From Bacteroidales bacterium (GTDB taxonomy: Bacteria > Bacteroidota > Bacteroidia > Bacteroidales > F082): a stretch of 64,000 nt of DNA. Both the position numbers and the translations under genes were made by a program. Below the pieces are notes generated by a model. It was not told the DNA's origin. It did no database searches and saw only the letters and a program-made list of their open reading frames with translations. This document shows, piece after piece, positions 13,174 through 33,567 of the stretch. The number at the start of each line of letters is the position of its first letter. The first letter of the stretch is position 1. The stretch lies in assembly GCA_017632935.1 (NCBI GenBank), contig JAGBQJ010000039.1, positions 1 through 64,000 on the forward strand, given 5' to 3'.

Positions 13174-13222
13174 CAAAAGTCCGTCTTTGTGAGAGGCACA
13201 ACAATCCCAACAAATAGGTAAT
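13174..13222 (-). promoter_or_regulatory. Promoter with shared operator-like 20-mer, copy D (weak)
   Basis: The minus-strand -7 box GACTTTTG (13174-13181) is followed upstream, after exactly 21 bp, by the 20-mer AATCCCAACAAATAGGTAAT (13203-13222, plus-strand reading). This keeps the outer AATCCC and GGTA-T blocks of the element seen at 14298, 29377 and 33548, with identical spacing. It would drive the ATC-hydrolase-like gene. Confidence 0.5.
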
Positions 13223-13280
13223 TTTAAGTCTTTCTTTCCCTATTGTTGGTTGCCAATGTGTTGTGACACAAAGGACTTAA

Positions 13281-13329
13281 AATCACGATAAATAGTGATT
13301 TTTGAGTAATCAACAAGCCAATAGTTTTG
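13281..13329 (+). promoter_or_regulatory. Plus-strand promoter with ATCAC/GTGAT inverted repeat
   Basis: The 20-mer AATCACGATAAATAGTGATT (13281-13300) is an inverted repeat placed exactly 21 bp upstream of a perfect -7 box TAGTTTTG (13322-13329). The geometry equals that of the AATCCC element on the other strand, but the sequence differs. It drives the truncated reading frame at 13384. The layout suggests an activator of the Crp/Fnr type (inference). Confidence 0.45.
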
Positions 13330-13383
13330 CAGACGAAAACTAATCGATGATCATTATCATTTAATCATCTAAAAATACACATT

Positions 13384-13578
13384 ATGAATTCACATAGGAT
13401 TAACAAATTCTTTGGAAGGTATGCAGCCTTCCTTTTGAAATGGCGATGGGTCGCCATTGCCTATAGGGTGGAAGACGCCAATACAAAAGAACGTGGTGGC
13501 ACCTATGATTATACCTGCAAAACTCATTTCTTTGCCGTCGCCATCAACCAGTGCTTGGTCTCGTTTTTCTGGATATAG
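13384..13578 (+). pseudogene. Probable N-terminal relic of an RND/MMPL-type transporter
   Basis: The first 26 codons read MNSHRINKFFGRYAAFLLKW and then RWVAIA, which resembles the cytoplasmic start and first helix of RND/MMPL efflux proteins. After this the frame runs into sequence with no similarity and ends after 64 codons, overlapping the 3' end of the convergent methyltransferase gene. A full transporter would need several hundred more codons. A proper promoter is still present upstream (13281-13329). I read it as a deletion relic; an unrelated short peptide is the alternative. Confidence 0.35.
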
Positions 13579-14150
13579 ATGCCCTTGAAACCTGCATTTG
13601 ACAGGTGGAGCCTGATTTCCTCGGGCTTGTAGGTGTGCATCCCCTCGATGAGTTTTTCCCATTTCTCGTTATTGCCCGAAAGACCGTCGTCTTCGTTGAC
13701 GATGACGAACTGTGCGCCAGGCTTCATCACCCTTTTCACTTCATTGAAACAATGTTCGATGTCGGGCCAGAAATAGATGGTCTCGAAAGCCGTGATGAGG
13801 TCGAAATTGTTCTCCTCAAAAGGCAGTTCGGCCACATTGGCTTCTTGTACTTGGCAACGACCTTCCGTGATAGCCTTGGCGTTCACCTTCTTGGATTTCT
13901 CCACCGAGACAGGCGAATAATCGACGCCTTGCACCCTGCCTTTCGGGGCACGTTGCAACAGCCGTGCGATGTTGGCGCCACCGCCACAGCCGATGTCCAA
14001 GATTTGGCTGTCCTCTTTGATCTGCACCGACGACAAGGCCCAGTTGGCCAGGTCTGCATGACCGCCGCTGTTCATTCCGTTGACCATCATTTTGCCGAAG
14101 AAGCCCTCCGGCTTACGCGTATTACTGAAGATTTTGCTTAAAAGTCCCAT
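13524..14150 (-). CDS. Class I SAM-dependent methyltransferase
   Basis: A 208-residue cytoplasmic methyltransferase. Motif I is clear (ILDIGCGGGANIARLL, around residue 48), followed by VQGVDYSPVSVEKSKK (motif II acidic Asp) and FDLITAFETIYFW (motif IV). This Methyltransf_11/25-type enzyme could act on a small molecule; the substrate cannot be predicted. Its transcript appears to begin at a promoter with the shared 20-bp operator-like element and to run through a leader with a terminator hairpin (14184-14220), 34 bp before the start codon. Expression may therefore depend on antitermination (inference). Confidence 0.88.
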   Translation of the reverse strand: MGLLSKIFSNTRKPEGFFGKMMVNGMNSGGHADLANWALSSVQIKEDSQILDIGCGGGANIARLLQRAPKGRVQGVDYSPVSVEKSKKVNAKAITEGRCQVQEANVAELPFEENNFDLITAFETIYFWPDIEHCFNEVKRVMKPGAQFVIVNEDDGLSGNNEKWEKLIEGMHTYKPEEIRLHLSNAGFKGIYIQKNETKHWLMATAKK

Positions 14151-14183
14151 GATTCTATACTATTTGGTAAGGTTAATGATCAA

Positions 14184-14220
14184 ATAAAAAAGATGCGGGA
14201 ACAATTTTTGTCCCCGCATC
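14184..14220 (-). terminator. Hairpin in leader of methyltransferase gene (duplicated element, copy A)
   Basis: On the minus strand GATGCGGG ... CCCGCATC is followed by TTTTTT, a canonical intrinsic terminator. It lies between the promoter at 14269 and the methyltransferase start at 14150. The same arrangement is repeated at 33431-33470. Confidence 0.7.
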
Positions 14221-14317
14221 GAAAACTAACTCAAAATTCATCCTAAATTGTATGACAAAAATCTGCCGCAAAGTAACTGCGGTTCCAGAGACTGTGAAAT
14301 CCCCATAGATGGGTATT
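14221..14317 (-). promoter_or_regulatory. Promoter, leader and operator-like 20-mer, copy A
   Basis: Minus-strand -7 box TTACTTTG (14269-14276) with the inverted-repeat 20-mer AATCCCCATAGATGGGTATT (14298-14317) exactly 21 bp upstream. The transcribed leader (about 14261 down to 14221) is nearly identical to the one at 33471-33511, including the stretch AGGATGAATTTTGAGTTAG. Confidence 0.65.
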
Positions 14318-14347
14318 TTGGACTTTGAAGCTCATCAAAAATGAGGA

Positions 14348-14386
14348 TAAAAAATCCGTGCGGAAGGAAGACCCATCCGCACGGAA
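14348..14386 (-). terminator. Terminator of the WG-repeat lipoprotein gene
   Basis: The minus strand reads TCCGTGCGG ... CCGCACGGA followed by TTTTTTA, 32 bp beyond the stop codon at 14418. Confidence 0.75.
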
Positions 14387-14417
14387 AACTATTTCAATGT
14401 TTAGGCTAAAAGAGCAC

Positions 14418-15689
14418 TTACTTGCCCATGTCGAGCGTGCAGTTACCCTTGGCATCAATGAAGCCGTACTGTCCGTCACGATCCACTAAGGCGACACCTT
14501 CTTTTAGGTCTTCTGCATATCTAAACTGGCAGGGGAACACCTCATTGCCCTCATGGTCGACGTAGCCGTATTTATCCGTGGTTTTGTCCCAAACGCGGGC
14601 AAGGCCATCATGGAAATCGTGGCAGGGTTGTTGGTAATACAATTCTGAACCGTCGTCGTAGGCGGCTTCATAACGGAAGGGGATGACGACTTGGCCTGTC
14701 TTGTCGATATAGCCGAATTTGCCATCCTTGTTGCACACCCATGCCAGCCCTTCGCTAAAGGTGGGACAGAGCGGGTAATTGCCGCATTCCATACCTTCAT
14801 CTAGGACAAGGGTTTTATAGTCGCCAGTCAGTTCAAACTTGCCGTCGCGATTGATGAATCCACACGCGTTTTCGGTTTCGGCCCAGCAGAGACCGTCAAC
14901 AAAACAGCCGGCATGTTTGAAAATGAAGGGGATGGCTTCGAAGCCTGTCTTGTCGACAAATCCAAAGTGACACACGAAATCATCGTTATCTAATGAGAAG
15001 CATTTGCTGACAGCTGCCAAGCCTTCGCTGAAGTCTTCAGCATCGCCTTCGCATTCAAAGACTTTATTCCCCGTCTTGTCGATGAAGATGCTCTTTTGGG
15101 AGTCGTAGTCATACCATCCGCGAAGGCCATCGCTGAAGTTAGTGGAGATAGGGCCATTGCACATCCTCATGTCGAGTTCAGCAGGGATGACCACCTTGCC
15201 TGTCTTGTCAATGTAGCCTTCTTTATCATCGTCGGTGTTGAAAATGGCCATCAGTCCATCGTGGAAGCCGTCGTGGAATCCTGGACGGTATGGAGGGCCA
15301 AAAGTAGCTATTTCCTTGCCTGTTTTGTCAATGAGGGACCACTCGTCGCCAGTCTTGTAAACGACGGCTGTGCCTTCACTAAAGTCAGGGGAGATGTAGT
15401 AGTATTTGCATGGGATGACTTCGTTGCCTTTCTTATCGATGAAGCCATAGAGCTCCGTTTCCTTGTCGCAGACGACAGCCAAGCCTTCACTAAAACTAGA
15501 GACCGAGCTGTATTTGGGCATTACCTTCGCCAACGCTTCCATGTCTGCCTGCATCACTTCGGGCTGTTCGACGGTTGGCTCCGAGGCTTGTTTGCCATTG
15601 TTGTTTTGGTCGCAGGCTGTGCCAATTACCATCATCAGCAGTGCCATCACCAGCAACATTGTACAGTTGTAGATGTTCTTTTTTTTCAT
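14418..15689 (-). CDS. WG-repeat lipoprotein
   Basis: A 423-residue exported lipoprotein. The signal peptide ends at the lipobox VIGTAC (residues 23-28). The rest is a series of WG repeats, each about 35-50 residues, with the recurring FIDKKGNEVIPCKY / FSEGLAVV pattern (for example YGFIDKKGN, EGYIDKTGKVVIP, FGYIDKTGQVVIP, YGFIDAKGNCTL). I count roughly eight to nine units. WG repeats are thought to form extended or propeller-like beta structures on the cell surface; no enzymatic role is known. The ATG at 15689 lies 32 bp from a perfect -7 box (TATATTTG, 15721-15728). Confidence 0.88.
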   Translation of the reverse strand: MKKKNIYNCTMLLVMALLMMVIGTACDQNNNGKQASEPTVEQPEVMQADMEALAKVMPKYSSVSSFSEGLAVVCDKETELYGFIDKKGNEVIPCKYYYISPDFSEGTAVVYKTGDEWSLIDKTGKEIATFGPPYRPGFHDGFHDGLMAIFNTDDDKEGYIDKTGKVVIPAELDMRMCNGPISTNFSDGLRGWYDYDSQKSIFIDKTGNKVFECEGDAEDFSEGLAAVSKCFSLDNDDFVCHFGFVDKTGFEAIPFIFKHAGCFVDGLCWAETENACGFINRDGKFELTGDYKTLVLDEGMECGNYPLCPTFSEGLAWVCNKDGKFGYIDKTGQVVIPFRYEAAYDDGSELYYQQPCHDFHDGLARVWDKTTDKYGYVDHEGNEVFPCQFRYAEDLKEGVALVDRDGQYGFIDAKGNCTLDMGK

Positions 15690-15720
15690 TGTTTTGTGTT
15701 TTTTGGGGTTAAATAATGTG

Positions 15721-15728
15721 CAAATATA
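15721..15728 (-). promoter_or_regulatory. -7 promoter box of the WG-repeat gene
   Basis: TATATTTG on the minus strand, a perfect TAnnTTTG match, 32 bp upstream of the start codon. Confidence 0.6.
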
Positions 15729-15771
15729 GTGTTTTTTTATTATCCAAACGCATCTGTTGATTGCTTCGATA

Positions 15772-16668
15772 TCAACCGCGTTGAATCGATGCAACCAATT
15801 CGTCGCTAATGTTGTTTCCCATCTGACAGCAGACATCCTGGCTCCAACGTTGCGCCATCTCGATGCGCGAGGCTTGGTCGCCCTTGCCTTGCAGCATGGC
15901 ATAGATGTAGCCAGCATTGAAATTGTCACCAGCTCCGACGGTGCTGACCGTCTCTATCGCCTGCACGGGATATGTCTCGCAACCTTCAGGAGAATAGACA
16001 CGTATCGAACGCGCGCCGTCCGTCAGGATTAATGTACGGCAATAGTGACTCACTCTTTTGTAGATGGCGTCACCATCGTGCAGCCCATACAGATGGTCGA
16101 AGTCTTCCATCGACCCGCGTACCAGATCTGCCAGGCACATGTTCTCCTCGATATTGGGCATCACGTTCGGCAAATCGGCGATGTGGGGCTTGCGGAAGTT
16201 GACATCATAATAGAGCCATGCTCCCGCCTCGCGTGCTGCACGCAGCAATCCGCCCACGACAGGACGTATCACAGGATTAATAGCGAAGAAGGAGCCGAAG
16301 AGCACCGCGTCATCCTTGCTCATCTCAGGCAGCTTGCCGTCCAACGAAACCGATGCATGGTCCTTGTAGAACACATATTGCGCATCGTTATGCTCATCCA
16401 GGAACGCCAACGAGATGTGCGACTTGATATGCTCGTGGCGGCAGACATATTCCGACGACACACCATTGTCGTTCAGATAGTGGCAGATCAGGTCGCCCAC
16501 ATGGTCGCCTCCAACCTCCGTCACCATGCAGCAGGGCACACCGGCCCGTCCGAGGGAGACGATACTATTGAACGTCGAGCCGCCTGGCACGGCTTTCTGC
16601 GGCTGGTCGTCCTTAAACAGGATATCCAGCACCGTTTCTCCAATTCCTATTACGCGTTGTTTAGTCAT
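15772..16668 (-). CDS. PfkB-family carbohydrate kinase (fructokinase-like)
   Basis: A 298-residue cytoplasmic ribokinase-fold sugar kinase. It has the N-terminal signature IGIGETVLDILF, the PGGSTFNSIVSLGRAGVP glycine-rich region and the C-terminal PfkB signature VSTVGAGDNFNAGYIYAM, where the Asp of GAGD is the catalytic base. The overall pattern fits fructokinases of Bacteroidetes, which phosphorylate fructose or a related ketose. There is no adjacent sugar transporter or glycosidase, so the substrate remains open. Confidence 0.9.
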   Translation of the reverse strand: MTKQRVIGIGETVLDILFKDDQPQKAVPGGSTFNSIVSLGRAGVPCCMVTEVGGDHVGDLICHYLNDNGVSSEYVCRHEHIKSHISLAFLDEHNDAQYVFYKDHASVSLDGKLPEMSKDDAVLFGSFFAINPVIRPVVGGLLRAAREAGAWLYYDVNFRKPHIADLPNVMPNIEENMCLADLVRGSMEDFDHLYGLHDGDAIYKRVSHYCRTLILTDGARSIRVYSPEGCETYPVQAIETVSTVGAGDNFNAGYIYAMLQGKGDQASRIEMAQRWSQDVCCQMGNNISDELVASIQRG

Positions 16669-16740
16669 TTCTCTAATAAATGGTCTTGCTATATTTTGCT
16701 TTTACAATTTCTACAATTCGCAAGTGAGTTCTTTTAGCTT

Positions 16741-16947
16741 TTACATGAAGTTCTTTAGTACATTTGATAACACAACAGGAAGTATCCCCAAAAGGTTACC
16801 AGCCATGTGAACCAAAATGGCAAGGACGATGGGAAAAAATTCGGAGTCCAACTTTACCACGTTGCGCAAAACAACGGCGACAATACAAACCGAGAAAGTC
16901 AACAAAAGCCCGACGATCAGGCGTGATAAAGCAAGGTTTTTCTTCAT
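16741..16947 (-). CDS. Small two-helix membrane protein
   Basis: A 68-residue protein with two strongly hydrophobic stretches (LIVGLLLTFSVCIVAVVL and IVLAILVHMAGNLLGILPVV) joined by a short polar turn (RNVVKLDSEFF). It starts with MKKNLALSR, a plausible positive-inside N-terminus. I do not recognise the family. It lies next to the relic of an aspartyl protease, so it may itself be a leftover; the intact start and compact length favour a real small membrane protein. Confidence 0.45.
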   Translation of the reverse strand: MKKNLALSRLIVGLLLTFSVCIVAVVLRNVVKLDSEFFPIVLAILVHMAGNLLGILPVVLSNVLKNFM

Positions 16948-16976
16948 GGTAAAACTATCTTTTTCATTAATATTGG

Positions 16977-17180
16977 TTATTTCCCTTTCATATAAACGAC
17001 AGAATGGTCGAAATCGAATACGGTATCGGTTTTTTCGAAGAATTTCAGGCCGATATTGCTAGGTGCCGTGAACAAAGGTAGGTTTTTGGTGATGACTACC
17101 ACCGCGTCAGGGAAAGTGATTTCTGTCAAAGCATAACCAACCGGCTTTTCAGCAGAGGAATGCCTTTTTCTATCCACCAT
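16977..17180 (-). pseudogene. C-terminal relic of a retropepsin-like aspartyl protease
   Basis: The readable part, from about GYALTEITFPDAVVVI through NIGLKFFEKTDTVFDFD to HSVVYMKGK, resembles the last strands of bacterial retropepsin-like aspartic proteases, where a G(M/L).FL.....FDF...Y segment closes the domain. The catalytic D(T/S)G motif and all N-terminal sequence are missing. The frame overlaps the 3' end of the gene at 17126-17428. I interpret it as the 3' remnant of a gene whose 5' part was lost. Confidence 0.4.
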
Positions 17181-17428
17181 AGGTTATCCACGCCGCCGGA
17201 GCTCATTCCTCCATGGGCAAACTGCTCTATTACGACAAAATCGCCGTATTGGTCGGTCATGACCTTGCCTGAAAGCGAATGGTATTCCTCTTTTATCCAC
17301 TTTTCCAGTTCGTCAGGAGAAACAATATCCATATTCTCCGCGAGTTCTTTTAAGTGATCCCAGAAATACGGATCTCCCCGGAACCCCCATCTCTCAGGTT
17401 TTTCTTCAAATATTACTGACAGTTTCAT
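17126..17428 (-). CDS. Conserved hypothetical protein (about 100 residues, GGMSSGG motif)
   Basis: A 100-residue cytoplasmic protein. It begins KLSVIFEEKPERWGFRGDPY and contains FVVIEQFAHGGMSSGGVDNL followed by IEKGIPLLKSR. Small proteins with this WG-RGDPY ... GGMSSGG pattern occur widely in bacteria, but their function is unknown to me. The ATG at 17428 fits that N-terminus better than the upstream start at 17446. The gene starts 14 bp after the stop of the leucine-rich-repeat gene and so may be its operon partner. Confidence 0.6.
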   Translation of the reverse strand: MKLSVIFEEKPERWGFRGDPYFWDHLKELAENMDIVSPDELEKWIKEEYHSLSGKVMTDQYGDFVVIEQFAHGGMSSGGVDNLWWIEKGIPLLKSRLVML

Positions 17429-17442
17429 ATGTCGAACACTTA

Positions 17443-19014
17443 TCATTTAACTGTAACCCGCCTCGTTTCAGTGCCCTTTGCCGTCTCCACCTTGATTATA
17501 TATATGCCGGCATTTTGATGGCTGAAGTCATATTCAAAGACAGCGCCATTAACGGAACCTTCAAAGACTTTTTCGCCAAGGACATTGAAAATGCCTACGT
17601 TCTTGATGTTCTCAGCCTCGATTTTAACAGGTCCATGTGTTGGATTTGGATAAACCGATGTGACAACAGGATCGACTTCCGCAATTGCAGTGCAATCTTC
17701 AATGAACTCATAGAAACCATACATACCGTAAGGGTCGTACCAAGCGGAGTTCTGATAGGCATCAACGCATCCACAAGGAACGGTGAGCACTGAAATGCCA
17801 AATTCTGCAAACACCATGCCTCCCAAGTCAGTTCCAAGAGTAGGAGGTGTGGTAGCCAAAGAAACCGCCTCAGAAATATGTGAGCACTTCCTGAAGGCCC
17901 AGTCGCCGATATTAGAAACAGATTCGCCGATGACCAGTTTCCCATTTAATCCTTCACACTGGAAAAACGCGCTCTCACCGATGTGGGTCACAGAATTTGG
18001 GATCACCAAGTCACCAGTCAAATCAAAGCATGTGGCAAAAGCGTTGTTACCAATGGAAACCACCGAACTCGGTATTTCAATCGATGTCATCCCCCTGATG
18101 CCCTTGAATGCGTTGTTGCCGATGACGGTCACAGCATAATTATGGCCCTCGTAACTCACCGATTCAGGAATCACCAACACGCCTTGTGCATTGTAACCGT
18201 CGACATGGCCAATAACCGTTACGGAGACATTGTCGTCATTCACACGATAGATCAAGTCGTCGACAGTGAACTCAGTAGGATTGGAGTTGTAGGTCATGAA
18301 CAGGCAGGTAGGATCATAACCGGTGCTACCATCATGAAGTGCGCCTAACATTGAGTAAGTTCCAGTATTGGGGTCAAGCTGATACAAATTGCCATAATGG
18401 GCGCCAAACAATTCGCCCGTCAGCATGTCGAAAGCCATTTTTATAGGCAAATCAATCGAGTTGATCATAGTCAATTGTGCATTGGAAAGATTCAATGAGC
18501 CAAACTCGCCCCAAGAACTAATCATATAAGCGTCACCCTCCATGTTGATGGCCAAATTGAAGCCATCATGCTCTATCACACCATGGTCTTGCATGGTGTT
18601 TGGGTTAGCTGGATCGAAGCTTTTAAGGTGTTCGTTGACAATGATATAAATCAATCCGTCGGCAGGATTGTAAGCCATATCGTTGACGTAAGGAACGTTG
18701 GCAACCATCACTTCAGGCGCTTCGATAAAACTGTTAGCAGCATCGAATCGCGACCTGCAGATGTTATTGCCGTTGTCATTATTCACACTCCAGACATAGC
18801 CATCAGCAAAGGTTGCTGTCGAAACAGGAGAAAGCGCATCCGACGCAATGGATACCGACCCTATATCCTGCATGGTAAAAGAGATATACTTGTATTCTGC
18901 CGGGCTGGAAGGTAATATGTATCCAAACCAGTTAGCGGCCGATGCAGGCCCCTGCGCTTTGGCAAAGCCTGCGAATGCGAATAATAACAAAAACAACTGT
19001 AAATGCTTTTTCAT
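17443..19014 (-). CDS. Surface leucine-rich-repeat protein with type IX secretion sorting domain
   Basis: A 523-residue exported protein. A signal peptide (HLQLFLLLFAFAGFAKAQG) is followed by a beta-propeller-like region (about 25-240) and by BspA-type LRR_5 repeats (about 270-400) with units such as VTVIGNNAFKGIRGMTSIEIP and SVTHIGESAFFQCEGL, each in adjoining pieces. The last 75 residues are a type IX secretion C-terminal domain: VYPNPTHGPVKIEA, NVGIFNVLGEKVFEG and AGIYIIKVETAKG. The protein should cross the outer membrane by the T9SS and be displayed on the cell. It starts 15 bp after the DUF362 lipoprotein gene and is probably cotranscribed with it. Confidence 0.9.
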   Translation of the reverse strand: MKKHLQLFLLLFAFAGFAKAQGPASAANWFGYILPSSPAEYKYISFTMQDIGSVSIASDALSPVSTATFADGYVWSVNNDNGNNICRSRFDAANSFIEAPEVMVANVPYVNDMAYNPADGLIYIIVNEHLKSFDPANPNTMQDHGVIEHDGFNLAINMEGDAYMISSWGEFGSLNLSNAQLTMINSIDLPIKMAFDMLTGELFGAHYGNLYQLDPNTGTYSMLGALHDGSTGYDPTCLFMTYNSNPTEFTVDDLIYRVNDDNVSVTVIGHVDGYNAQGVLVIPESVSYEGHNYAVTVIGNNAFKGIRGMTSIEIPSSVVSIGNNAFATCFDLTGDLVIPNSVTHIGESAFFQCEGLNGKLVIGESVSNIGDWAFRKCSHISEAVSLATTPPTLGTDLGGMVFAEFGISVLTVPCGCVDAYQNSAWYDPYGMYGFYEFIEDCTAIAEVDPVVTSVYPNPTHGPVKIEAENIKNVGIFNVLGEKVFEGSVNGAVFEYDFSHQNAGIYIIKVETAKGTETRRVTVK

Positions 19015-19029
19015 GGTGATTAAGATTAG

Positions 19030-20064: not shown

Positions 20065-20089
20065 TGTTAGGTTTTTATGATCGGCCATG

Positions 20090-20097
20090 CAAAAATA
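20090..20097 (-). promoter_or_regulatory. -7 promoter box of DUF362 lipoprotein gene
   Basis: TATTTTTG on the minus strand, a perfect consensus match, 26 bp from the start codon. Confidence 0.6.
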
Positions 20098-20195
20098 CAA
20101 ATTTCCCGCTATTCCACGCATGGTGCATAAAAAAACCAAGCCCTTAAAACAAACATCGCCAGAATTCATTCCTTATTCAGCGATTCGGTGGAAAT

Positions 20196-20270
20196 GTGGA
20201 ATTTTACTGTTTTTGCCCCATCAAAAACAAACCATCATTCCCAAAAAGAAAATTCCATTCTCGAAAGACC
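20196..20270. repeat. 75-bp segment shared with 38396-38473 (copy 1)
   Basis: The blocks GGAATTTTACTGTTTTTGCC and CCCAAAAAGAAAATTCCATT, with CATC and a variable middle between them, are repeated with few changes at 38396-38473. Here the segment overlaps the last codons of ogt; there it is the promoter and upstream region of a truncated LuxR regulator. Confidence 0.7.
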
Positions 20271-20749
20271 TGTCTTTCCAGCCGCAGGAGGGCAACTTTG
20301 TTGTTCATGCCGCCACCATATCCGACAAGCTTCCCGTTGGCACCAATCACCCGATGGCAGGGCACAATGAGACAAACTGGATTCCAACCCACTGCACCAC
20401 CAACAGCCTGCGCCGAATTGATATTCAGACGTTTGGCTATCTCACCATAAGTCTTGATTTGTCCAAAAGGGATTTCACATACAGCTTTCAAGACCGCCTC
20501 GCGAAACGGAGTGAGGCCGTTCATGCGAAAGGCTGGCGTGAAATCAGGTTGGTGTCCGGAGAAATAAGTGTCCAGCCAACGGCAGGTGTCGTGAACGATG
20601 GACGGTAGAGAAGTAAAGTCTTGTATCTCAGCAATGTCCGATGCATCGCGCGAGCTTTCAAACCAAAGGCCGGTCACGACACCTCCGTCGGAGCGTATCA
20701 GAAGGTCATCGAAACCATCAGGTGTGTGATAGCGGTAAAGCGGCGTCAT
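20204..20749 (-). CDS. ogt: Methylated-DNA--protein-cysteine methyltransferase
   Basis: A 181-residue DNA repair suicide enzyme that transfers the methyl group of O6-methylguanine to its own cysteine. The active site IVPCHRVIGANG is intact (Cys near residue 131), preceded by the recognition helix TYGEIAKRL and followed by LVGYGGGMNNKVALLRLE. The ATG at 20749 avoids overlap with the upstream GNAT gene, whose stop is 20 bp away. The C-terminal tail after LERQ is unusual; it is encoded by a segment repeated elsewhere in the window. Confidence 0.92.
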   Translation of the reverse strand: MTPLYRYHTPDGFDDLLIRSDGGVVTGLWFESSRDASDIAEIQDFTSLPSIVHDTCRWLDTYFSGHQPDFTPAFRMNGLTPFREAVLKAVCEIPFGQIKTYGEIAKRLNINSAQAVGGAVGWNPVCLIVPCHRVIGANGKLVGYGGGMNNKVALLRLERQVFREWNFLFGNDGLFLMGQKQ

Positions 20750-20769
20750 CGGAGTCAAATAGCCATGTA

Positions 20770-25838: not shown

Positions 25839-25856
25839 CGCCAAAATAATATTGAG

Positions 25857-26462: not shown

Positions 26463-28120
26463 ATTCCAAAGATTCTCATATCTTCCTCAACCGTACTAAT
26501 CCCGCCAATGCCGAAGTTTTCGACCAAGACTTTTGCCACATTTGGTGAAAGGAACGTGGGCAAGGTCGGGCCGAGATGGATGTTCTTCACGCCGAGGCTG
26601 AGAAGGGCTAACAGAACGATGACAGCCTTTTGCTCGTACCAAGCGATGTTATAGGCGATAGGCAATTGGTTTACATCGTCCAAGCCGAACACTTCCTTCA
26701 GTTTTAATGCGATAAGTGCCAGCGAATAACTGTCGTTGCACTGGCCCGCATCCAACACGCGCGGAATGCCATTGATGTCGCCCAAGCCAAGTTTGTTGTA
26801 CTTGTATTTGGCGCAACCCGCCGTTAGGATGACGCAATCCTTGGGCAAGGCCTTGGCAAATTCGGTGTAGTATTCGCGGCTCTTCATACGACCGTCGCAG
26901 CCTGCCATCACCACAAACTTGCGGATGGCACCGCTTTTCACGGCCTCTACTACTTTGTCGGCAAGGGCAAACACCTGTTCGTGGGCAAAACCTCCTATAA
27001 TCTTGCCCGTCTCAATCTCTTTAGGGGCTTGGCAGGTCTTGGCCAAAGCGATAATTTCACTGAAATCCTTTTTGCCGTTGGCATCAGCGGGGATGTGCTT
27101 CCAACCCGGAAAACCCGTGCTGTTGGTGGTGAAAACGCGGTCTTTGTATGTGGCATTGGCCGTAGGCGGCACGATGCAGTTGGTGGTGAACAGAATGGGG
27201 CCGTTGAAGGCTTCAAACTCCTCGCGCTGTTTCCACCAAGCGTTGCCGTAGTTGCCTTTCAAGTGGCTGTATTTCTTTAGTTTGGGGTAATAATGTGCAG
27301 GTAACATCTCGCTATGGGTGTAGATGTCGATGCCAGCGTCCTTGCTCTGTTCCAAAAGTTGCTCAATGTCGTTGAGGTCGTGGCCGCTGATGAGGATGCC
27401 TGGACGGTTACCAACGCCAATGTTCACCTCGGTGATTTCAGGGTTGCCGTAAGCGGTCGTATTGGCTTTGTCGAGCAGTGCCATCGCCTTCACGCCCCAT
27501 TCGCCTGTTTTCAGGACAAGAGCGGTGAGTTCATTGGCATCGTTGCAGGTCACTAATTGGCCAAGGGTTTGCAGGATGAACTCGTTGATGTCGCTGTCCA
27601 CCTGACCGAGGCGAGCGGCGTGTTCCAAGTAGGCGGCCATACCTTTAAGGCCGTACATAGTCAACTCCTTCAGCGAGCGGATGTCCTCGTTGCTTTCGGC
27701 TAATACGCCCACGTTTTGCGCTTTCTCGTCATATTGCTCGCGGGGGCTATTCCATTCCAATACATCAAGTTTCGGGAGCACGATGCCTTTCTTGTCGGTC
27801 ACGCGGTCGATAAACATATTGCGCAATTCCAAGCCCTTGTCGATGCGGGCGTAGATACTCTCCGCGTCGAAGTTGGCATTGGTGATGGTCGAAAACAGTG
27901 CGTCGTTCACAAAGGCGTGGATGCTCTTGCGGAAATCGCAATAATCGTGTCCACATCCATGCTGGTGATGGTTGGCGATGACGCCCAATCCTTTAAGGAC
28001 ATAAATCAAAAGGTCTTGTGCGTGAGCCACTTGTGGGGTCTTTCCGCACACTCCTGAAATCTTACAGCCGGTGCATCCGGCGGTTTCCTGACATTGGAAA
28101 CAAAACATTTTCTCGTTCAT
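26459..28120 (-). CDS. hcp: Hydroxylamine reductase (hybrid cluster protein)
   Basis: A 553-residue cytoplasmic iron-sulfur protein that reduces hydroxylamine or nitric oxide. The N-terminal cluster ligands are in [20 protein letters not shown]. Later blocks for the hybrid 4Fe-2O-2S cluster include [19 protein letters not shown] in similar form, [32 protein letters not shown] and [11 protein letters not shown], then [14 protein letters not shown] and [20 protein letters not shown]. Length and motifs are normal. The ATG at 28120 starts MNEKMFCF. The promoter has a perfect -7 box and a Crp-type palindrome at the position of a class II activator site. Confidence 0.96.
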
Positions 28121-28155
28121 AGTATTGCGTGTTGGGTTAGTTTTGAAATTTGCCG

Positions 28156-28199
28156 CAAAACTACATACGAGGAATGACTTGAAGCGTAACAAATGTTAC
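28156..28199 (-). promoter_or_regulatory. hcp promoter with Crp/Fnr-type palindrome
   Basis: The minus-strand -7 box TAGTTTTG (28156-28163) is perfect. Upstream lies GTAACA-AA-TGTTAC (28186-28199), a perfect 6-bp inverted repeat whose centre is about 41 bp before the expected start of transcription. This is where a class II Crp-type activator would bind; the likely protein is the regulator encoded at 25857. Confidence 0.65.
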
Positions 28200-28241
28200 A
28201 GTGAAAAACAAAAATCCGTAAATAGAAAAAAACATATTTTT

Positions 28242-28562
28242 TCACTTTTTCTTTTTCGGCTTTGGTTGTGGCAATGCCTTAATGGTCTCGCGGACAAGCG
28301 CCGACAAATAATCCCTGTCGTCCACATCTTCGATGAAGAAAAAGTCTTTTGCGCCGTCGTAAGGCGGACGCATTTCGACGCTGCGCAACAGCGAGCGGCC
28401 AGCCTCGGTCGGTTTCAGATAGAAACGGTTATCGCAGACGAGGCCGAAGATGACGCCGTCGCAATAAATGCCGTAGTCGCCGAACATTTTTTTCACGGTG
28501 ATCTCGCCTGCACCAGCACATTGGTCGGCGATGTATTGAACGAAGTCGGGGTTGCTTGCCAT
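28242..28562 (-). CDS. TfoX/Sxy N-terminal domain protein
   Basis: A 106-residue protein that equals the TfoX/Sxy N-terminal domain: ITVKKMFGDYGIYCDGVIFG, then DNRFYLKPTEAGR and PYDGAKDFFFIED. TfoX controls competence in gammaproteobacteria, but short homologues like this one are widespread and of unknown role. The C-terminus is a Lys/Pro tail (PQPKPKKKK). A perfect -7 box TACCTTTG lies at 28587-28594. A gutted second copy of this gene is present at 25615-25700. Confidence 0.85.
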   Translation of the reverse strand: MASNPDFVQYIADQCAGAGEITVKKMFGDYGIYCDGVIFGLVCDNRFYLKPTEAGRSLLRSVEMRPPYDGAKDFFFIEDVDDRDYLSALVRETIKALPQPKPKKKK

Positions 28563-28586
28563 GGTGAGTTATCCTTTGTGATTGCG

Positions 28587-28594
28587 CAAAGGTA
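28587..28594 (-). promoter_or_regulatory. -7 promoter box of the TfoX-like gene
   Basis: TACCTTTG on the minus strand, 25 bp upstream of the start; the same box survives in the relic at 25680-25687. Confidence 0.6.
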
Positions 28595-28620
28595 CGAAAA
28601 ATCTCAATAAACCAGTCGGC

Positions 28621-28755
28621 CTATTGCCGCTTCGCCTCATAGCCGATGTCAGTGATGGCCTTGATGACGGCCTCGTCGGTGATGTCGCCTTTGACGGTGG
28701 CGGTGCCAGCGGCGAGGTCCACGGTCACCTCATCGATGCCCTGCAAGCCTTGCAT
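28621..28755 (-). pseudogene. Relic of a heavy-metal-associated (HMA) domain protein
   Basis: The 44 codons from the ATG at 28755 encode MQGLQGIDEVTVDLAAGTAT, then VKGDITDEAVIKAITDIGYE and AKRQ. This is the second half of an HMA domain as found in copper chaperones and CopA. The first half with the metal-binding GMxCxxC motif is absent; upstream in this frame there is a TGA stop, and the sequence merges with the 3' end of the MptD-like gene. I read this as the product of a deletion that joined the two genes. Confidence 0.6.
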
Positions 28756-29320
28756 AATTCAATGTTGTCGCAGTCTTTTTCATCACACGCTCCGCCAGTC
28801 GCATGGCGAGCATGGCGATGGGTATGGTCAATGCTATGACGACAATTAGCATGGGGATGTTGTCGATGACGGGTTTCATCAGCTCGTCATAACCGGCAGG
28901 CATCTCCTCGACGGCAGCGGCCAACGAGCCTTCGGTGTCGGTCCACCAATGAAGGGTATAGGCGAAAAACGAAAAAGCGAAGGGAACGAAGCTCCAGCGG
29001 ACACCTTTCATCGTGTCGTAGCCTTTCATCTTTCGGAGAATCTCGGCCAAAGCGGTCAAAACAACCGTTCCAATGATGTAAGCCAGATCCGCTTCGCCCG
29101 CTATCAAGAACAGGACGAAGATGAATCCGTTCAGGGCTGTTGCCGCCCCGAAGCCACGGATGAGGGTGCAGGTATAGAGGTAGATAAAGGCGGACACAAG
29201 CGGCAGCACCGCGCCGATATACGCATAGCATGCAGGGTGGATGGCGCCACTTGCAGCACCCAAAATGAACAAGGCCAAATAAGCGATGGCCATCAGGAAG
29301 ACTTTTAATACTGTTTTCAT
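28730..29320 (-). CDS. MptD-like putative ECF transporter S component
   Basis: A 196-residue membrane protein with five to six helices. Features such as ASGAIHPACYAYIGAVLPLV, FGAATALNGFIFVLF and LTALAEILRKMKGY resemble the Trep_Strep/MptD family, thought to be substrate-binding S components of energy-coupling-factor vitamin or metal transporters. The ATG at 29320 gives a good N-terminus (KTVLKVFLMAIAYLALFILG). The promoter has the shared 20-bp operator-like element. The last codons overlap an HMA relic, so the natural C-terminus may have been altered. Confidence 0.65.
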   Translation of the reverse strand: MKTVLKVFLMAIAYLALFILGAASGAIHPACYAYIGAVLPLVSAFIYLYTCTLIRGFGAATALNGFIFVLFLIAGEADLAYIIGTVVLTALAEILRKMKGYDTMKGVRWSFVPFAFSFFAYTLHWWTDTEGSLAAAVEEMPAGYDELMKPVIDNIPMLIVVIALTIPIAMLAMRLAERVMKKTATTLNYARLAGHR

Positions 29321-29347
29321 AGTTTTACTTTTTGATGTTTGACACTG

Positions 29348-29396
29348 CAAAGTAATGGCCATTTCAAAAATCGTGAAATCCCTATTGATGGGTATT
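29348..29396 (-). promoter_or_regulatory. Promoter with operator-like 20-mer, copy C
   Basis: Minus-strand -7 box TTACTTTG (29348-29355) and, 21 bp upstream, the inverted repeat AATCCCTATTGATGGGTATT (29377-29396, plus reading). It drives the MptD-like gene directly, without the terminator leader seen in copies A and B. Confidence 0.65.
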
Positions 29397-29511
29397 GTCA
29401 AGTGATCTTATCCCAAGTTTCGATGACTTTTGAGAACAAACGCCGCAAAGGTTCTTGTGTGATGCATGGGCAATTCATGATGGAGTTTCGGAGGAAACAG
29501 AGATGAAGAAA

Positions 29512-29550
29512 ACAAATCCGCCATTCAAGCTTTCGCTCGAATGGCGGATT
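29512..29550 (-). terminator. Terminator of the exported thioredoxin gene
   Basis: AATCCGCCATTC and GAATGGCGGATT form a 12-bp stem, followed on the minus strand by TTGTTTTC, 22 bp past the stop codon. Confidence 0.75.
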
Positions 29551-29571
29551 GTTCACTATAAACCTTAAAAC

Positions 29572-30648
29572 TTACTTGTGCACAATCACCAAGCGTTGGG
29601 TCGTTCCGTTGCTAGTTCTAACAAAGTAGATGCCTTCTTGGTACTTGGCAGTCGGGATGACCAATTGCGACTTGTCAGTGCGGAAAGTCTCGACTTTCTG
29701 CCCGACTACGTTGTAAAGGTTTACCACGCCAAGATTCTCGCCTTGGAGGGTTACGCTTTCGTTGGCGGGATTGGGGAACATGGTCAGCGTCGTGCTGTTT
29801 TCACCGACGCCGACGGTCATTTCGTAAACGATGTCGACCTCGAAGTTGCCCGCCGAAGTGTTGACATACATCTTTCCTTCGAAGTTTTCCTTCACAGGCA
29901 CATCGACATAGACATCAATAATAATGGTTTCTCCTGCCGTGACGGTCATGCCTTCGGTGACGTCTTGGCCATCATCCATGCAATGCAACGCAAAGATGGG
30001 GTCGGCAGTGAAGGCATTGACGGTTACGTCTTCAGCGGTCATGTTGGAAATGGTCAGTTGGCCAGGCTGATAGGTCTCACCATCGTTGTAGATGTGCAAG
30101 GTTTGCGGGTTGACGGTCAGCGTGCCTGTGCAGTCGTGGGGTTGCAAGCCGTTTTGTTGCATGGCATTGACCACATCTTGTGCCGAGAAGGGATAGAGAT
30201 CCAGCAGGCCTCGGATGGGGATGCTACGGTCGGGCATGATGAGGACGAGAGTGGGGCAGGCTTGGATGCCATAAAGGTCGAAGACCTCGTTGCCACCGCC
30301 GTCCTTGCCGACGGTGGGAAATTCAACACCGTATTCGTTGGCCCATTGCTGGCAGACGGCATTGCTGTCGATGTATGAGATTTCGATGTAGAATACATCG
30401 TGCATGTTGCAGCCCATCTGGGTATAAGAACCCGTGATGTAAGGCGAGATCTGCTGGCATTGTCCGCATGAGTAGAAGAAGAAGTCGATGAAGACGGCTT
30501 GACCGCGGTCAAGGATCTCGAAGAGGTTGTAGGTCTGTCCGTGGCAGTCGGTGACAGTGAAGTCGACGGCCTCAGTGAGGTTGGTCTGTTGTGCGCGAAG
30601 ACCTACTCCAAAGAGCAGGAACGCGAGGAGAATGTAAATTTTTTTCAT
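29572..30648 (-). CDS. Exported thioredoxin-like protein with type IX sorting domain
   Basis: A 358-residue secreted protein. Signal peptide: KIYILLAFLLFGVGLRAQ. Residues 25-170 form a thioredoxin/redoxin fold with the active site FYSCGQCQQISPY (CGQC) and the cis-Pro region YGIQACPTLVLI. A beta-sandwich follows (about 180-275), and the end is a type IX secretion domain: LTMFPNPANESVTLQG, VNLYNVVGQKVETF and GIYFVRTSNGTTQ. It is expected on the surface or in the medium, where it may form or reduce disulfides. The CxxC site is intact. Confidence 0.9.
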   Translation of the reverse strand: MKKIYILLAFLLFGVGLRAQQTNLTEAVDFTVTDCHGQTYNLFEILDRGQAVFIDFFFYSCGQCQQISPYITGSYTQMGCNMHDVFYIEISYIDSNAVCQQWANEYGVEFPTVGKDGGGNEVFDLYGIQACPTLVLIMPDRSIPIRGLLDLYPFSAQDVVNAMQQNGLQPHDCTGTLTVNPQTLHIYNDGETYQPGQLTISNMTAEDVTVNAFTADPIFALHCMDDGQDVTEGMTVTAGETIIIDVYVDVPVKENFEGKMYVNTSAGNFEVDIVYEMTVGVGENSTTLTMFPNPANESVTLQGENLGVVNLYNVVGQKVETFRTDKSQLVIPTAKYQEGIYFVRTSNGTTQRLVIVHK

Positions 30649-30750
30649 GGTGAAAAATGGTTTGTGGTTATACTTATTATTACTTTGGCACTTCGATATT
30701 GTGAGATCTGTCAGTTTTGTCTTCGGATAATTAATCCCACAATTAAAATG

Positions 30751-31743
30751 TCAATTTTCATTGTCTATGCTGATAATAGTGTATTTTCGTGTTCCGAGTC
30801 CAATCTGTTCGGCATATTCCACGGTATGGGTGCCGTGTTTCTTGTTGATGCGTTCTTGCAAAGGCTTGGCGTCATCGCCCTTGCTGCTGATGTGGTTGAA
30901 CACGAGGTCGAGGCAGGCTTGGTCGAGGGCGACGGGGTCAGTGGAGGCCAGAATGCCGATGTCCTTGATGCGCGGTGCGGCAGGGTGCCCGTCGCAGTCG
31001 CAGTCTACCGACATGTTGTTCATCACATTGATGTAGATGATGTCCTTGCCTTCCTGCTTGAAATAATCGTGTACGGCCTGTGCCGCTGCGGCCATCGACT
31101 CAAGGAAACTGTCCTGTTTGGCGATCGTCCAATGCTTCTGGCTCTTGCCCGCAGAGTGGATGTAGAGCTTTCCGGCGGTAGAGGCCACGCCGATGCTCTG
31201 GTTCTTCAGTACGCCGCCGAAGCCGCCCATGGCATGTCCCTTGAAGTGGGCCAGGTTGATCATAAAGTCGTAGTTTTGCAGGTGTGAGCCTACGATGTCA
31301 TATTGCAGATGTTTGGTGTCTTTGACGGGCAGCTGCATTTCGCCTTCCTCGTCCATGATGTCAACGGTGGCGATGTCGTTGTAGCCGCGTTCAGCGATGG
31401 CTTGGCGGTGCTTTTCGGTGTCGCCACGGTTGCCGCCGTAAGCCGTGTTGCATTCCACGAGGGTGCCGTTCACCTTTTGTACCAGGTTTTTGATCAGTTC
31501 GGGGCGCAGGTGGTTGCTCTTCGATGACTCGCCGGTGGAGATTTTAACGGCCACACGGCCGTGGGCCTCCACGCCCAAAGCCTCATAGATGCGCACCAGC
31601 CCCTCCGGACTGATGTCGGTAGTCATATAAACCGTTGCAGCCTCGCCTTCAGTCGTGGGTGGGGCGGGTTGATGTGTTTGTGCATGGCATGAAGCCATGC
31701 CGAGAATGCAAATCAGTGCCATAACGATAGTGCTTTTAGTCAT
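30751..31743 (-). CDS. DUF362 domain lipoprotein (paralog 2)
   Basis: A 330-residue exported protein with a lipobox in LGMASC (around residue 19) and a DUF362 domain. It shares long blocks with the paralog at 19030-20064: GLVRIYEALGVEAHGRVAVK, FKGHAMGGFGGVLKNQSIG, INVMNNMSVDCDCDGHPA and GILASTDPVALDQACLDLV. The conserved VDCDC motif could bind a metal or cluster, which is speculation. It starts 24 bp after the flavin-reductase-like lipoprotein gene and probably shares its transcript. Confidence 0.87.
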   Translation of the reverse strand: MTKSTIVMALICILGMASCHAQTHQPAPPTTEGEAATVYMTTDISPEGLVRIYEALGVEAHGRVAVKISTGESSKSNHLRPELIKNLVQKVNGTLVECNTAYGGNRGDTEKHRQAIAERGYNDIATVDIMDEEGEMQLPVKDTKHLQYDIVGSHLQNYDFMINLAHFKGHAMGGFGGVLKNQSIGVASTAGKLYIHSAGKSQKHWTIAKQDSFLESMAAAAQAVHDYFKQEGKDIIYINVMNNMSVDCDCDGHPAAPRIKDIGILASTDPVALDQACLDLVFNHISSKGDDAKPLQERINKKHGTHTVEYAEQIGLGTRKYTIISIDNEN

Positions 31744-31767
31744 ATTATTGTTGTTTTGTGAATAATG

Positions 31768-32376
31768 TTATCTCTTCCATGACCCAATCACCTCGCCGAC
31801 ATACACCGTATGGATACCAGCATCGAAACCGTCGTACCATTTCTTGGGCGTGTCGTTTCGGAAGTCTTGCTCCGTCTGATGCCATGCCGTCATGGTTTCG
31901 CACTCGATGACCAGGTTGGCTTCTTCGTAATAGGGTGTGCCGTGTTCGGTATAGGCCACATGCAGGCCGAGGGCAGCGGCCTTGTCGCCGTCGCGCCCAC
32001 TGTACTTGCCCATATACTGCCAAATCTTTGGGTCGTCGAACTGCATGATGGTGAAGCGTGGGTGTTTCTCCATAAACTCCCAGGTGTAGCGTGCTGGTGC
32101 CACATACACCGTCACTGCCGGACGGTCGTGGCCAAGGTAATTGCCGATGCCGCCCCAACCAATGGTCATGGCGTTGCTCTCGGTGGTGTCGCCCGAGCAT
32201 AGGATGAGGTTCTCGGTGAACCAGGTGAAGCCGTTCTTTTGAAATTCCTGTTGCACATCGAAGGCAGTCAGTTCGTTGTTTTCCTTATTCATAGTTTCGT
32301 TGTTTTGTTCCTGTCGTTGAGGACTGGCACAGCCGATGAGGGCGAGGCAGAAAAGGGTAATTAAGTGCTGTTTCAT
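31768..32376 (-). CDS. Flavin reductase-like lipoprotein
   Basis: A 202-residue flavin reductase-family split barrel preceded by a lipoprotein signal (LITLFCLALIGC, Cys near residue 16). The domain shows FTENLILCSGDTTESNAMTI, WGGIGNYLGHDRPAVTVYVA, HPRFTIMQFDD and YYEEANLVIECETM. Most family members are cytoplasmic, so a membrane-anchored extracytoplasmic form is unusual. The start at 32376 lies 26 bp from a perfect -7 box (TATCTTTG, 32402-32409) that backs onto the promoter of the divergent transporter gene. Confidence 0.82.
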   Translation of the reverse strand: MKQHLITLFCLALIGCASPQRQEQNNETMNKENNELTAFDVQQEFQKNGFTWFTENLILCSGDTTESNAMTIGWGGIGNYLGHDRPAVTVYVAPARYTWEFMEKHPRFTIMQFDDPKIWQYMGKYSGRDGDKAAALGLHVAYTEHGTPYYEEANLVIECETMTAWHQTEQDFRNDTPKKWYDGFDAGIHTVYVGEVIGSWKR

Positions 32377-32401
32377 TGAAAATGATGTGTTTATTGAAGC
32401 G

Positions 32402-32426
32402 CAAAGATAAACAATTTCTATCTTTG
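32402..32426. promoter_or_regulatory. Back-to-back promoters of flavin reductase and EamA genes
   Basis: TATCTTTG on the minus strand (32402-32409) and TATCTTTG on the plus strand (32419-32426) lie 9 bp apart. The plus box is only 8 bp from the ATG of the transporter gene, so that mRNA would have almost no leader. The two promoters would compete for polymerase. Confidence 0.6.
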
Positions 32427-32434
32427 CGCCCGAA

Positions 32435-33415
32435 ATGTTTATCGGAGAACTAATTTCATTAGGCGTTGCCGTTTCGTGGACCGCCACGGCATTGTTTGCG
32501 GAAGTGGGCTCGAAGCGTATGGGCTCGCTGCCGTTCAACACTATCCGCATGACGATGTCGCTGGTGCTCCTTGCCGTCACGCTGTGGCTGGTGATGGGCG
32601 TGCCTTATCCGCGTTATGCCGATGCCAGCACTTGGACATGGCTGCTGCTCTCGGGCTTGGTGGGTTATGTCATCGGCGACTACTGCCTGATGCAAGGCTA
32701 CATAAAGATAGGTTCTCGTTTCGGTCAGCTCTTTATGACTTTGTCGGCACCTACGGCAGCAGTCACGGGACGGTTGCTCCTTGGGGAGCAGATGCGCCCC
32801 ATCGCCATCGTTGGCATGGTCGTCACCTTGAGCGGCATTGCGCTTTCGATATTGTCGAAGAGCGACAAATCCGATCATCATGCCATCCATTTCAAGTTAC
32901 CAACGAAAGGCATCTTTTTCGCGGCGATGGCTGGCATTTGCCAAGGTTTCGGCTTGGTGCTCAGCAAGGTAGGCTTGACGCATTACGACGCTGCCCTCAC
33001 TGCCGCTGGCATCGCAGGCGATTCGGTCTTTGCCAACGCCGTGTTGCCTCTGCCTGTCAGCGTCAGCATGTCCTTTGCCGCCACCACGATCCGCGCTTAC
33101 ATCGGACTTGTGGGATTTTTCTTAGCGTTGGTTTTGTTCAACAAAGACGGACTTGCCCAGTTGCGTCACGCCGTGAGCGACCGCAAGGCGATGTGGTGTG
33201 TGCTGGCATCTACCATATTCGGGCCATTCATCGGGGTCAGCGCGTCGCTATTGGCCACGCAATTCACCTCGGCGGGTATCGCCCAGACGCTCTTTGCGCT
33301 CACGCCCATTCTCATCATCGCCCCAGCAGCCATCCTTTTCCATCAAAAGGTGACCTTGCGCGAAGTCATAGGCGCTGTGATCAGTGTCGTTGGTGTGTGT
33401 CTATTTTTTGTGTAA
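32435..33415 (+). CDS. EamA/DMT family transporter
   Basis: A 326-residue inner-membrane protein with ten predicted helices in two EamA repeats: the first with ISLGVAVSWTATALFAEVGS and GYVIGDYCLMQGYIKIGSRF, the second with IFFAAMAGICQGFGLVLSKV and FGPFIGVSASLLATQFTSAG. Such transporters export or import amino acids, nucleosides or other metabolites; the substrate is unknown. The ATG at 32435 nearly coincides with the predicted transcription start. The gene ends just before a hairpin that belongs to the opposite-strand element B. Confidence 0.9.
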   Translation: MFIGELISLGVAVSWTATALFAEVGSKRMGSLPFNTIRMTMSLVLLAVTLWLVMGVPYPRYADASTWTWLLLSGLVGYVIGDYCLMQGYIKIGSRFGQLFMTLSAPTAAVTGRLLLGEQMRPIAIVGMVVTLSGIALSILSKSDKSDHHAIHFKLPTKGIFFAAMAGICQGFGLVLSKVGLTHYDAALTAAGIAGDSVFANAVLPLPVSVSMSFAATTIRAYIGLVGFFLALVLFNKDGLAQLRHAVSDRKAMWCVLASTIFGPFIGVSASLLATQFTSAGIAQTLFALTPILIIAPAAILFHQKVTLREVIGAVISVVGVCLFFV

Positions 33416-33430
33416 CTCATTGACCTGCAC

Positions 33431-33470
33431 AAAAAAAAGATGCGGAACCAGAACCCTTGTCCCGCATCTT
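33431..33470 (-). terminator. Terminator hairpin of element B
   Basis: AAGATGCGG (33437-33445) pairs with CCGCATCTT (33462-33470); on the minus strand it is followed by a run of T. It may also serve the convergent EamA gene ending at 33415. Confidence 0.75.
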
Positions 33471-33511
33471 AAAACTAACTCAAAATTCATCCTAGTACAG
33501 TATGACAAAAA
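33431..33511 (-). ncRNA. Candidate small RNA, copy B of a duplicated leader
   Basis: A short minus-strand transcription unit: promoter at 33519, then about 40 nt that nearly match the leader at 14221-14261 (with AGGATGAATTTTGAGTTAG), then the hairpin AAGATGCGG ... CCGCATCTT followed by eight T residues. No gene on the minus strand lies downstream, because the next gene is on the plus strand. The unit would give an RNA of about 80 nt. The short frame starting ATGAATTTTGAG is not conserved in phase beyond the leader, so a peptide is less likely. Confidence 0.45.
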
Positions 33512-33518
33512 TCTGCTG

Positions 33519-33567
33519 CAAAGTAACGATCTTTCCAGAAACCGTATAATCCCCATTGATGGGTATT
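33519..33567 (-). promoter_or_regulatory. Promoter with operator-like 20-mer, copy B
   Basis: Minus-strand -7 box TTACTTTG (33519-33526) with AATCCCCATTGATGGGTATT (33548-33567, plus reading) 21 bp upstream. It differs from copy A by one base in the 20-mer. Confidence 0.65.

Follow-up and report, generated by a model that had tools for sequence, protein, structure and literature searches.

The window analysed here, a 64,000-nucleotide stretch of contig JAGBQJ010000039.1 from a Bacteroidales bacterium of the F082 lineage, carries on its minus strand four copies of a near-palindromic operator of 22 bp, AAAT[A/C]CC-N8-GGGATTT; each copy is followed, after a gap of 24 bp, by the TTTG of a -7 box of Bacteroidetes type. 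We consider it probable that an iron-starvation activator of the hemerythrin/CdhR type uses this repeat as its operator, and that the regulon here includes a small RNA (sRNA) present in several copies. The operator motif, its spacing, its conservation, the genes downstream of it and its linkage to cdhR genes are real. The initial annotation is extended by two points, namely that the transcripts at two of the four sites are RNAs of one family and that the regulon would concern iron.

All four repeats which the initial annotation had placed at a constant distance from -7 boxes are present, and the gap between operator and TTTG is 24 bp at 4/4 sites. The box has the form T[TA]NNTTTG at three of them, the site at 13.2 kb having only GACTTTTG; TAnnTTTG is given as the sigma-A -7 consensus in PMC9723704. 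A 33-bp block common to three of the sites was expected 0 times in 100 shuffles, the pattern having been derived from these same sites. One copy had been noted as degenerate with its outer blocks and spacing kept; the degenerate site at 13.2 kb is supported by a near-identical sequence, AAATACCTATTTGTAGGGATTG, which stands at the same spacing in genomes G092 and G123.

When the whole source genome (2.86 Mb, 62 contigs) was scanned, the 17-bp core of the motif gave four exact matches, three in the window and one at C19:5206, and one match with a single mismatch (C48:1589); at 2 mismatches there are 19 matches in all versus 7 for the reversed pattern, and noise begins. The sole additional place for the 22-bp form at 0-1 mismatch is a perfect palindrome, AAATCCCG...CGGGATTT, at C40:249986-250007. 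This was set aside as an operator, being a terminator-like hairpin followed by T-runs and probably a bidirectional terminator; similar palindromes mimic the operator and add noise to pattern counts. In a scan of related genomes, a check proposed in the initial annotation, operator, N24 and TTTG with up to 2 mismatches matched 231 times in 99 genomes of the genus versus 22 times for the reversed pattern, the 231 including terminator-like palindromes and some operators read from the opposite strand. Order-wide, at up to 1 mismatch, matches occur in 83 of 295 genomes, and reversed-pattern matches number 5. The small regulon that had been suggested is real and extends beyond the window into the genus and the order. 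The genomes compared are mostly drafts, many from metagenomes. In another genus of the family, genome G006 possesses two operator-like palindromes (C28:34593 and C62:18012; L238 and L239) without the usual -7 box at 24 bp.

On contig C19 a LuxR-type helix-turn-helix (HTH) protein (GerE, 4.7e-17) is encoded behind a hemerythrin (1.3e-7), divergently from a copy of the first of two sRNAs, sRNA-I and sRNA-II, described below. A regulator of Crp/Fnr or LuxR type co-occurring with the motif had been suggested as something to test, and a LuxR-type one is indeed linked to the sites, in its genomic position as well as in its presence across genomes. Of 63 sites outside the genus, seven are no more than 1 kb away from a listed CdhR match, where 0.06 would be expected; they belong to six genomes of six families. 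In the order, the 30 best-scoring CdhR homologues all have a hemerythrin gene as neighbour, and at seven of the 30, our own included, the operator is found with up to 2 mismatches (reversed pattern 0, shuffles about 0). Within the genus, operator matches number 155 versus 11 for the control in 65 hemerythrin-positive genomes, and 8 versus 5 in 10 genomes without hemerythrin; sRNA-I or sRNA-II occurs in 35/65 of the former versus 0/10 of the latter (p 0.0012, which is optimistic because the genomes are related).

The phosphorylation-site Asp is replaced by Asn in 28 of the 30 CdhR proteins. Residues H99, H143, E148, H177, H221 and E225 are invariant in the 30 hemerythrins; in this family such residues bind the two irons. 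Like the di-iron proteins RIC/YtfE/ScdA, the hemerythrin belongs to the hemerythrin fold family, and its nearest relatives are the RIC iron-sulphur (Fe-S) repair family TIGR03652; unlike them it scores 55.8 bits, far under the cut-off of 204.7, and always stands beside a LuxR regulator in the 30 loci. A hemerythrin gene followed by that of a LuxR-type regulator is also the arrangement of PG1236/CdhR (PG1237) in Porphyromonas gingivalis and of BT0519-BT0520 in Bacteroides thetaiotaomicron, a comparison by gene order.

Both of these pairs are iron-responsive according to PMC10434189. In B. thetaiotaomicron, iron depletion raised BT0519-0520 (hemerythrin, response regulator) 16-20-fold, BT0515-17 (with FldA) 37-598-fold and BT2473-82 (CcsA, porin, thiol oxidoreductase, peptidase M75) 63-324-fold; in P. 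gingivalis the PG1236-37 pair, the regulator of which is CdhR, rose about 7-fold. FeoB genes rise less, TetR and DtxR genes are among the iron-responsive ones, and in Prevotella intermedia the hemerythrin and regulator genes are fused (PMC10434189). PMC10101095 describes CdhR of P. gingivalis as activating hmu and reports a decrease of cdhR in microaerophilic conditions. No operator sequence for CdhR or for either of the two pairs, and no Bacteroidota iron sRNA, was found in the open-licence literature.

The genes behind the operator appear to be of the same kinds as these published iron-depletion-induced genes, a likeness by kind of gene, and by analogy iron shortage would be the signal in this organism too. 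In the genus the predicted regulon would include iron-uptake and electron-transfer genes. Twenty places, selected for recurrence, were read there (Pfam on L277, L278, L281, L283, L285, L289, L290, L292 and L294; remaining names by eye). FeoAB lies behind sites L283, L284, L287 and L296, and also L246; a methyltransferase behind L277, L281, L294 and one site of L289; Trep_Strep behind L285 and the other site of L289; an ATC-hydrolase-like gene behind L278; and ResB/CcsA (cytochrome-c biogenesis) behind L280 and L290 as well as at L293, where it follows a copy of sRNA-I. Lipoproteins follow at L279 and L286, a porin-like gene at L292, a hemerythrin gene 184 bp downstream of the L291 site, and sRNA-II at L282 and L295, L288 being without a clear gene. 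On contig C48 the order is histidine-phosphatase gene, porin-like gene, imelysin (Peptidase_M75) and di-haem oxidoreductase, with a weaker operator (C48:3058, 2 mismatches, same spacing) preceding the porin-like gene; this gene and its relative in L292 have no Pfam or NCBIfam match and were named by eye.

A further 20 places were picked from the order-wide list, six of them for nearness to CdhR, and their proportions are not a fair sample. Flavodoxin stands behind L337 and L341, hemerythrin behind L330 and L342, FeoAB behind L345, TonB receptors behind L326 and L339, and TetR behind L340. Porin- or outer-membrane-like genes (by eye) follow L327, L329, L331, L335 and L338, and sites L328, L332, L333, L334, L336, L343 and L344 are without a clear iron role or without a clear gene.

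The promoters at 14.27 and 33.52 kb carry this same operator of the iron genes and precede paralogous RNAs of about 85 nt ending in terminators (sRNA-I). The assembly holds four copies, two on the window's own contig and the others on C19 and C48; one copy is on a contig of 7.5 kb, and a related strain may be mixed into the assembly. The candidate RNA of about 85 nt is expected to begin just after GTTACTTTG and to end at the terminator. Its layout is GCAGCAGATTTTTGTCATAC, a short variable loop, AGRATGAATTTTGAGTTAGTTTT (GCGGCAG in the 14-kb copy), a G+C hairpin whose sequence varies, and a T-run. A covariance model built from the four copies had 38 matches when run against 149 genomes of the family; the 28 genomes with a match all belong to a single genus, which accounts for 75 of the 149. 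These loci were found by the RNA model with no use of the operator, and the operator stands exactly 24 bp from TTTG, with 0-2 mismatches, at 37 of the 38, so that the fixed spacing reported for the window holds here as well; L091, the weakest match (E 6.6e-4) and one without the first conserved block or the operator, had been dropped before the spacing count. The operator followed by CAC, at 0 mismatches, has 22 sites in the 149 genomes, all in genomes with sRNA-I, 21 of them at the RNA and one at a methyltransferase gene upstream of Trep_Strep. Over the order, 4 of 393 genomes give a match to sRNA-I, three in the genus and one with a weak match (G455, E 8e-4). In an exact-pattern scan of contigs from 84,980 species it was met in 33 stretches, all titled Bacteroidales, Bacteroidia or bacterium F082 and many ruminant-derived, which points to a rumen bacterium of F082 type as the probable source of the window.

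In 39 aligned copies (37 loci, L256 and L293; 37 distinct rows) five of the six pairs of the terminator helix have changed on both sides, and 96% of its cells are paired; the alignment was fitted to the model, which favours the model's structure. The inner helices 1 and 2 hardly vary and have almost no covariation support. The two conserved blocks are mostly unpaired and the body is AT-rich, which fits the extended-seed idea proposed for Bacteroides sRNAs, organisms with no obvious Hfq (PMC7366714). A peptide in place of an RNA is unlikely, as the loop between the conserved blocks varies by 1-2 bases. Rfam had 0 matches at gathering threshold in the window and only sub-threshold matches on L020, L021, L346 and L347 (two sRNA-I and two sRNA-II stretches). 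The RNAs SnoA and Rfp18 were not taken as relatives, a judgement based upon the descriptions in their papers. Within about 3 kb a histidine-phosphatase gene occurs in 14 of 37 sRNA-I loci and hemerythrin/cdhR in 10 of 37; in seven of those ten the RNA and the hemerythrin gene are divergent and about 100 bp apart. Some copies lie beside putative divalent-metal exporters, named by eye, of the P-type ATPase (L029, L086) or cation diffusion facilitator type (L036, L037, L048, L089).

A second RNA unlike the first, sRNA-II, lies behind the operator in other genomes of the genus (L253, L261, L273, L274, L346, L347, L358 and L360). It begins with a 5' hairpin, GATAATGAAG/CTTCGTTATC, the loop of which bears UCCC; a conserved GGTTTAATGTTTAATGAATTA and a terminator follow. 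With a model built from six copies it was detected in 8 of 99 genus genomes; the two copies outside the model have the same arrangement, with 3 mismatches. Among the 75 genus genomes searched for both RNAs, sRNA-I occurs in 28, sRNA-II in 7 and both in 0, the eighth sRNA-II genome (G303) lying outside the sRNA-I model search.

In the mechanism which we propose, the activator is CdhR, a LuxR/NarL-HTH protein whose receiver-like domain, unlike that of NarL/NarP-type regulators, lacks the phosphate-accepting Asp; it is encoded beside the di-iron hemerythrin and presumably controlled by it. Under iron shortage CdhR would bind as a dimer to the 22-bp palindrome, whose centre is 35 bp upstream of TTTG (roughly -42), contact RNA polymerase and fire the promoter, and sRNA-I, made under the same switch, would perhaps ration iron. 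A dimeric activator near -42 had been proposed in the initial annotation, and our results support that view. LuxR-type activators sit near -42, where we estimate the palindrome centre to be if the RNA starts several bases past the box, and the fixed spacing would fit an activator touching RNA polymerase. The TACCCAT-NN-ATGGG symmetry, the LuxR-type HTH and the site near -42 resemble the 7-2-7 operators of NarL/NarP and others of the LuxR/FixJ family; unlike at NarL/NarP sites, the outer AAAT/ATTT blocks are fixed here and the inner eight bases vary. The simplest reading is that the iron-sensing partner directly touches the non-phosphorylated activator. We infer CdhR binding, promoter activation, the start sites, the iron response in this organism and the mode of action of the RNA, which would probably act in trans by base-pairing.

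Several observations weigh against this proposal. Of the 30 best CdhR loci, 23 have no operator within 2 mismatches in about 3.5 kb. The difference per genome between those with and without hemerythrin is modest (p 0.03, again optimistic because of relatedness), and the signal is weak, with 20 matches versus 3 for the control, in those 30 genomes of the genus that have the hemerythrin and neither RNA. The only intact hemerythrin-cdhR pair is on C19, a contig of 7.9 kb which possibly comes from a related strain, and at the hemerythrin promoter of this locus no more than a degenerate element is visible by eye, at a distance of 25 bp from TTTG. Elements like it were seen at 5 of 6 other divergent loci, and none was evident by eye in the upstream stretches read of L157, L158, L161, L169-L171 and L173. 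Among the loci read we did not come across hmu, the published CdhR target; no search was aimed at it. Searches for long complementary sites found no sRNA target: in 56 genus genomes (28 with and 28 without sRNA-I) the reverse complement of an sRNA-I 15-mer occurs exactly only at the RNA genes. Of seven places with one mismatch that were examined, five represent a single orthologous place, a sixth resembles it, and none lies clearly where a gene begins. In the own genome an 11-mer matches six times, at the four RNA genes and at two other places, one of which is a start codon (reversed control 1); this is close to the chance level.

The same operator and iron regulon might belong to a different regulator, for example of Fur/DtxR or TetR type, hemerythrin-cdhR being only a regulon member. 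A gene that adjoins an operator may be its target just as well as the source of the regulator, one site precedes a TetR gene (L340), and TetR and DtxR genes are listed as iron-responsive in PMC10434189. We nevertheless think this unlikely given the CdhR linkage in six genomes of six families, the signal itself, which is no higher than the control in the 10 genomes of the genus that lack hemerythrin, and the short inner spacing of the palindrome, as at the sites of LuxR/NarL proteins. Slightly better placed, though still improbable, is the notion that CdhR activates and the hemerythrin reads oxygen or nitric oxide instead of iron shortage. The RIC family is indeed its closest relative, albeit far below cut-off, and the microaerophilic decrease of cdhR (PMC10101095) points the same way; against this, the published relatives are induced by iron depletion (PMC10434189) and many genes behind the sites serve iron uptake or iron replacement.

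That sRNA-I is a leader or attenuator of the next gene, rather than a trans-acting sRNA, is suggested by several loci at which a gene in the same direction starts shortly past the terminator. We give this little credence, since the neighbouring genes differ among loci, the next gene is convergent at 33.5 kb and in L028, L035 and L055, a fresh -7-like box follows the terminator in C19 and C48 (by eye), and two copies occupy one contig. Finally, the repeats might have arisen by chance or simply by recent duplication, without any function; in favour of this, two window sites are paralogous copies of one RNA promoter and hence not independent. It is scarcely credible, given that unrelated genes in many families are preceded by this motif at this spacing, and given reversed-pattern controls of 22 versus 231 and of 5 matches in 295 genomes. 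The hemerythrin/CdhR activator is the reading we retain.

Features of the window discussed in the text (HTH, helix-turn-helix; ECF, energy-coupling factor). Mismatches are to AAATMCC-N8-GGGATTT.
Feature	Position	Strand	Remarks
Operator 1, degenerate, AATTACCTATTTGTTGGGATTG	13202..13223	-	2 mismatches; TTTG 13174-13177; span to TTTG 13174-13223
ATC-hydrolase-like gene behind operator 1	12498..13127	-	209 aa from ATG 13127; Pfam ATC_hydrolase 2.5e-14 (longer open reading frame)
Weak fifth operator-like site, AAATCACGATAAATAGTGATTT	13280..13301	+	2 mismatches; 24 bp before TTTG 13326-13329; span 13280-13329
Operator 2, AAATACCCATCTATGGGGATTT	14297..14318	-	0 mismatches; TTTG 14269-14272; span to TTTG 14269-14318
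sRNA-I copy and terminator behind operator 2	14184..14266	-	Model match 14183-14277; fold z -4.7; 5' end estimated
Methyltransferase gene past sRNA-I terminator	13524..14150	-	Pfam Methyltransf_11 5.5e-22
Operator 3, CAATACCCATCAATAGGGATTT	29376..29397	-	1 mismatch; TTTG 29348-29351; span to TTTG 29348-29397
Trep_Strep / MptD-like, ECF S-component-like membrane protein behind operator 3	28730..29320	-	Pfam Trep_Strep 5.4e-23 on 28730-29314; ATG 29320; NCBIfam TIGR02185 match below cut-off
Operator 4, AAATACCCATCAATGGGGATTA	33547..33568	-	1 mismatch; TTTG 33519-33522; span to TTTG 33519-33568
sRNA-I copy and terminator behind operator 4	33430..33516	-	Model match 33430-33527; fold z -3.0; 5' end estimated
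Truncated second hemerythrin-cdhR copy	38439..38939	+	First ~15 hemerythrin codons straight into cdhR from about codon 45; HTH kept

The downstream genes named in the initial annotation stand for the ATC-hydrolase-like protein, the MptD-like protein and the small RNA at 33.5 kb; the methyltransferase does not stand as the target at 14.27 kb, where the small RNA comes first and the methyltransferase lies past its terminator. In genome G118 the three gene types of the window form a single operon, in the order Trep_Strep, methyltransferase and ATC-hydrolase-like. At about 13130-13147 (minus strand), just upstream of the ATC-hydrolase-like gene, we observed ACTATGAAAACAGTATT, which equals the start of the Trep_Strep gene; this looks as if the Trep_Strep gene had been lost from a G118-like operon. 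The weak fifth site points away from the 13.2-kb site and has only a 64-aa open reading frame, at 13384, downstream. The truncated cdhR is 85% identical to the C19 protein over residues 45-195.

sRNA-I resembles RyhB, PrrF and IsrR, iron-responsive sRNAs of other phyla, in being a small RNA of an iron regulon, here a predicted one. It differs in that it would be activated by CdhR, not repressed by Fur. PrrF, like sRNA-I, reportedly occurs in several copies in a genome. Unlike these three, sRNA-I has no Rfam match at threshold and would work in bacteria without Hfq, to judge from what PMC7366714 says of Bacteroides. In a wider picture, which we hold tentatively and at somewhat less than even weight, the Bacteroidales would possess an iron switch other than Fur, with a di-iron hemerythrin as sensor, a non-phosphorylatable LuxR activator and one operator in many families, and the F082-type rumen genus would have recruited to it, in different lineages, sRNA-I (up to four copies) and sRNA-II as an Hfq-free counterpart of RyhB.

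We suggest that sRNA-I is an undescribed small RNA which may help the cell to ration iron. It would, to our knowledge, be the first candidate RyhB-like RNA in the phylum, none having been found in the open-licence literature. With so precise an operator, at a fixed spacing, the regulon can be put to the test in a laboratory species, and iron promoters can be annotated in the genomes of uncultured bacteria from gut and rumen.

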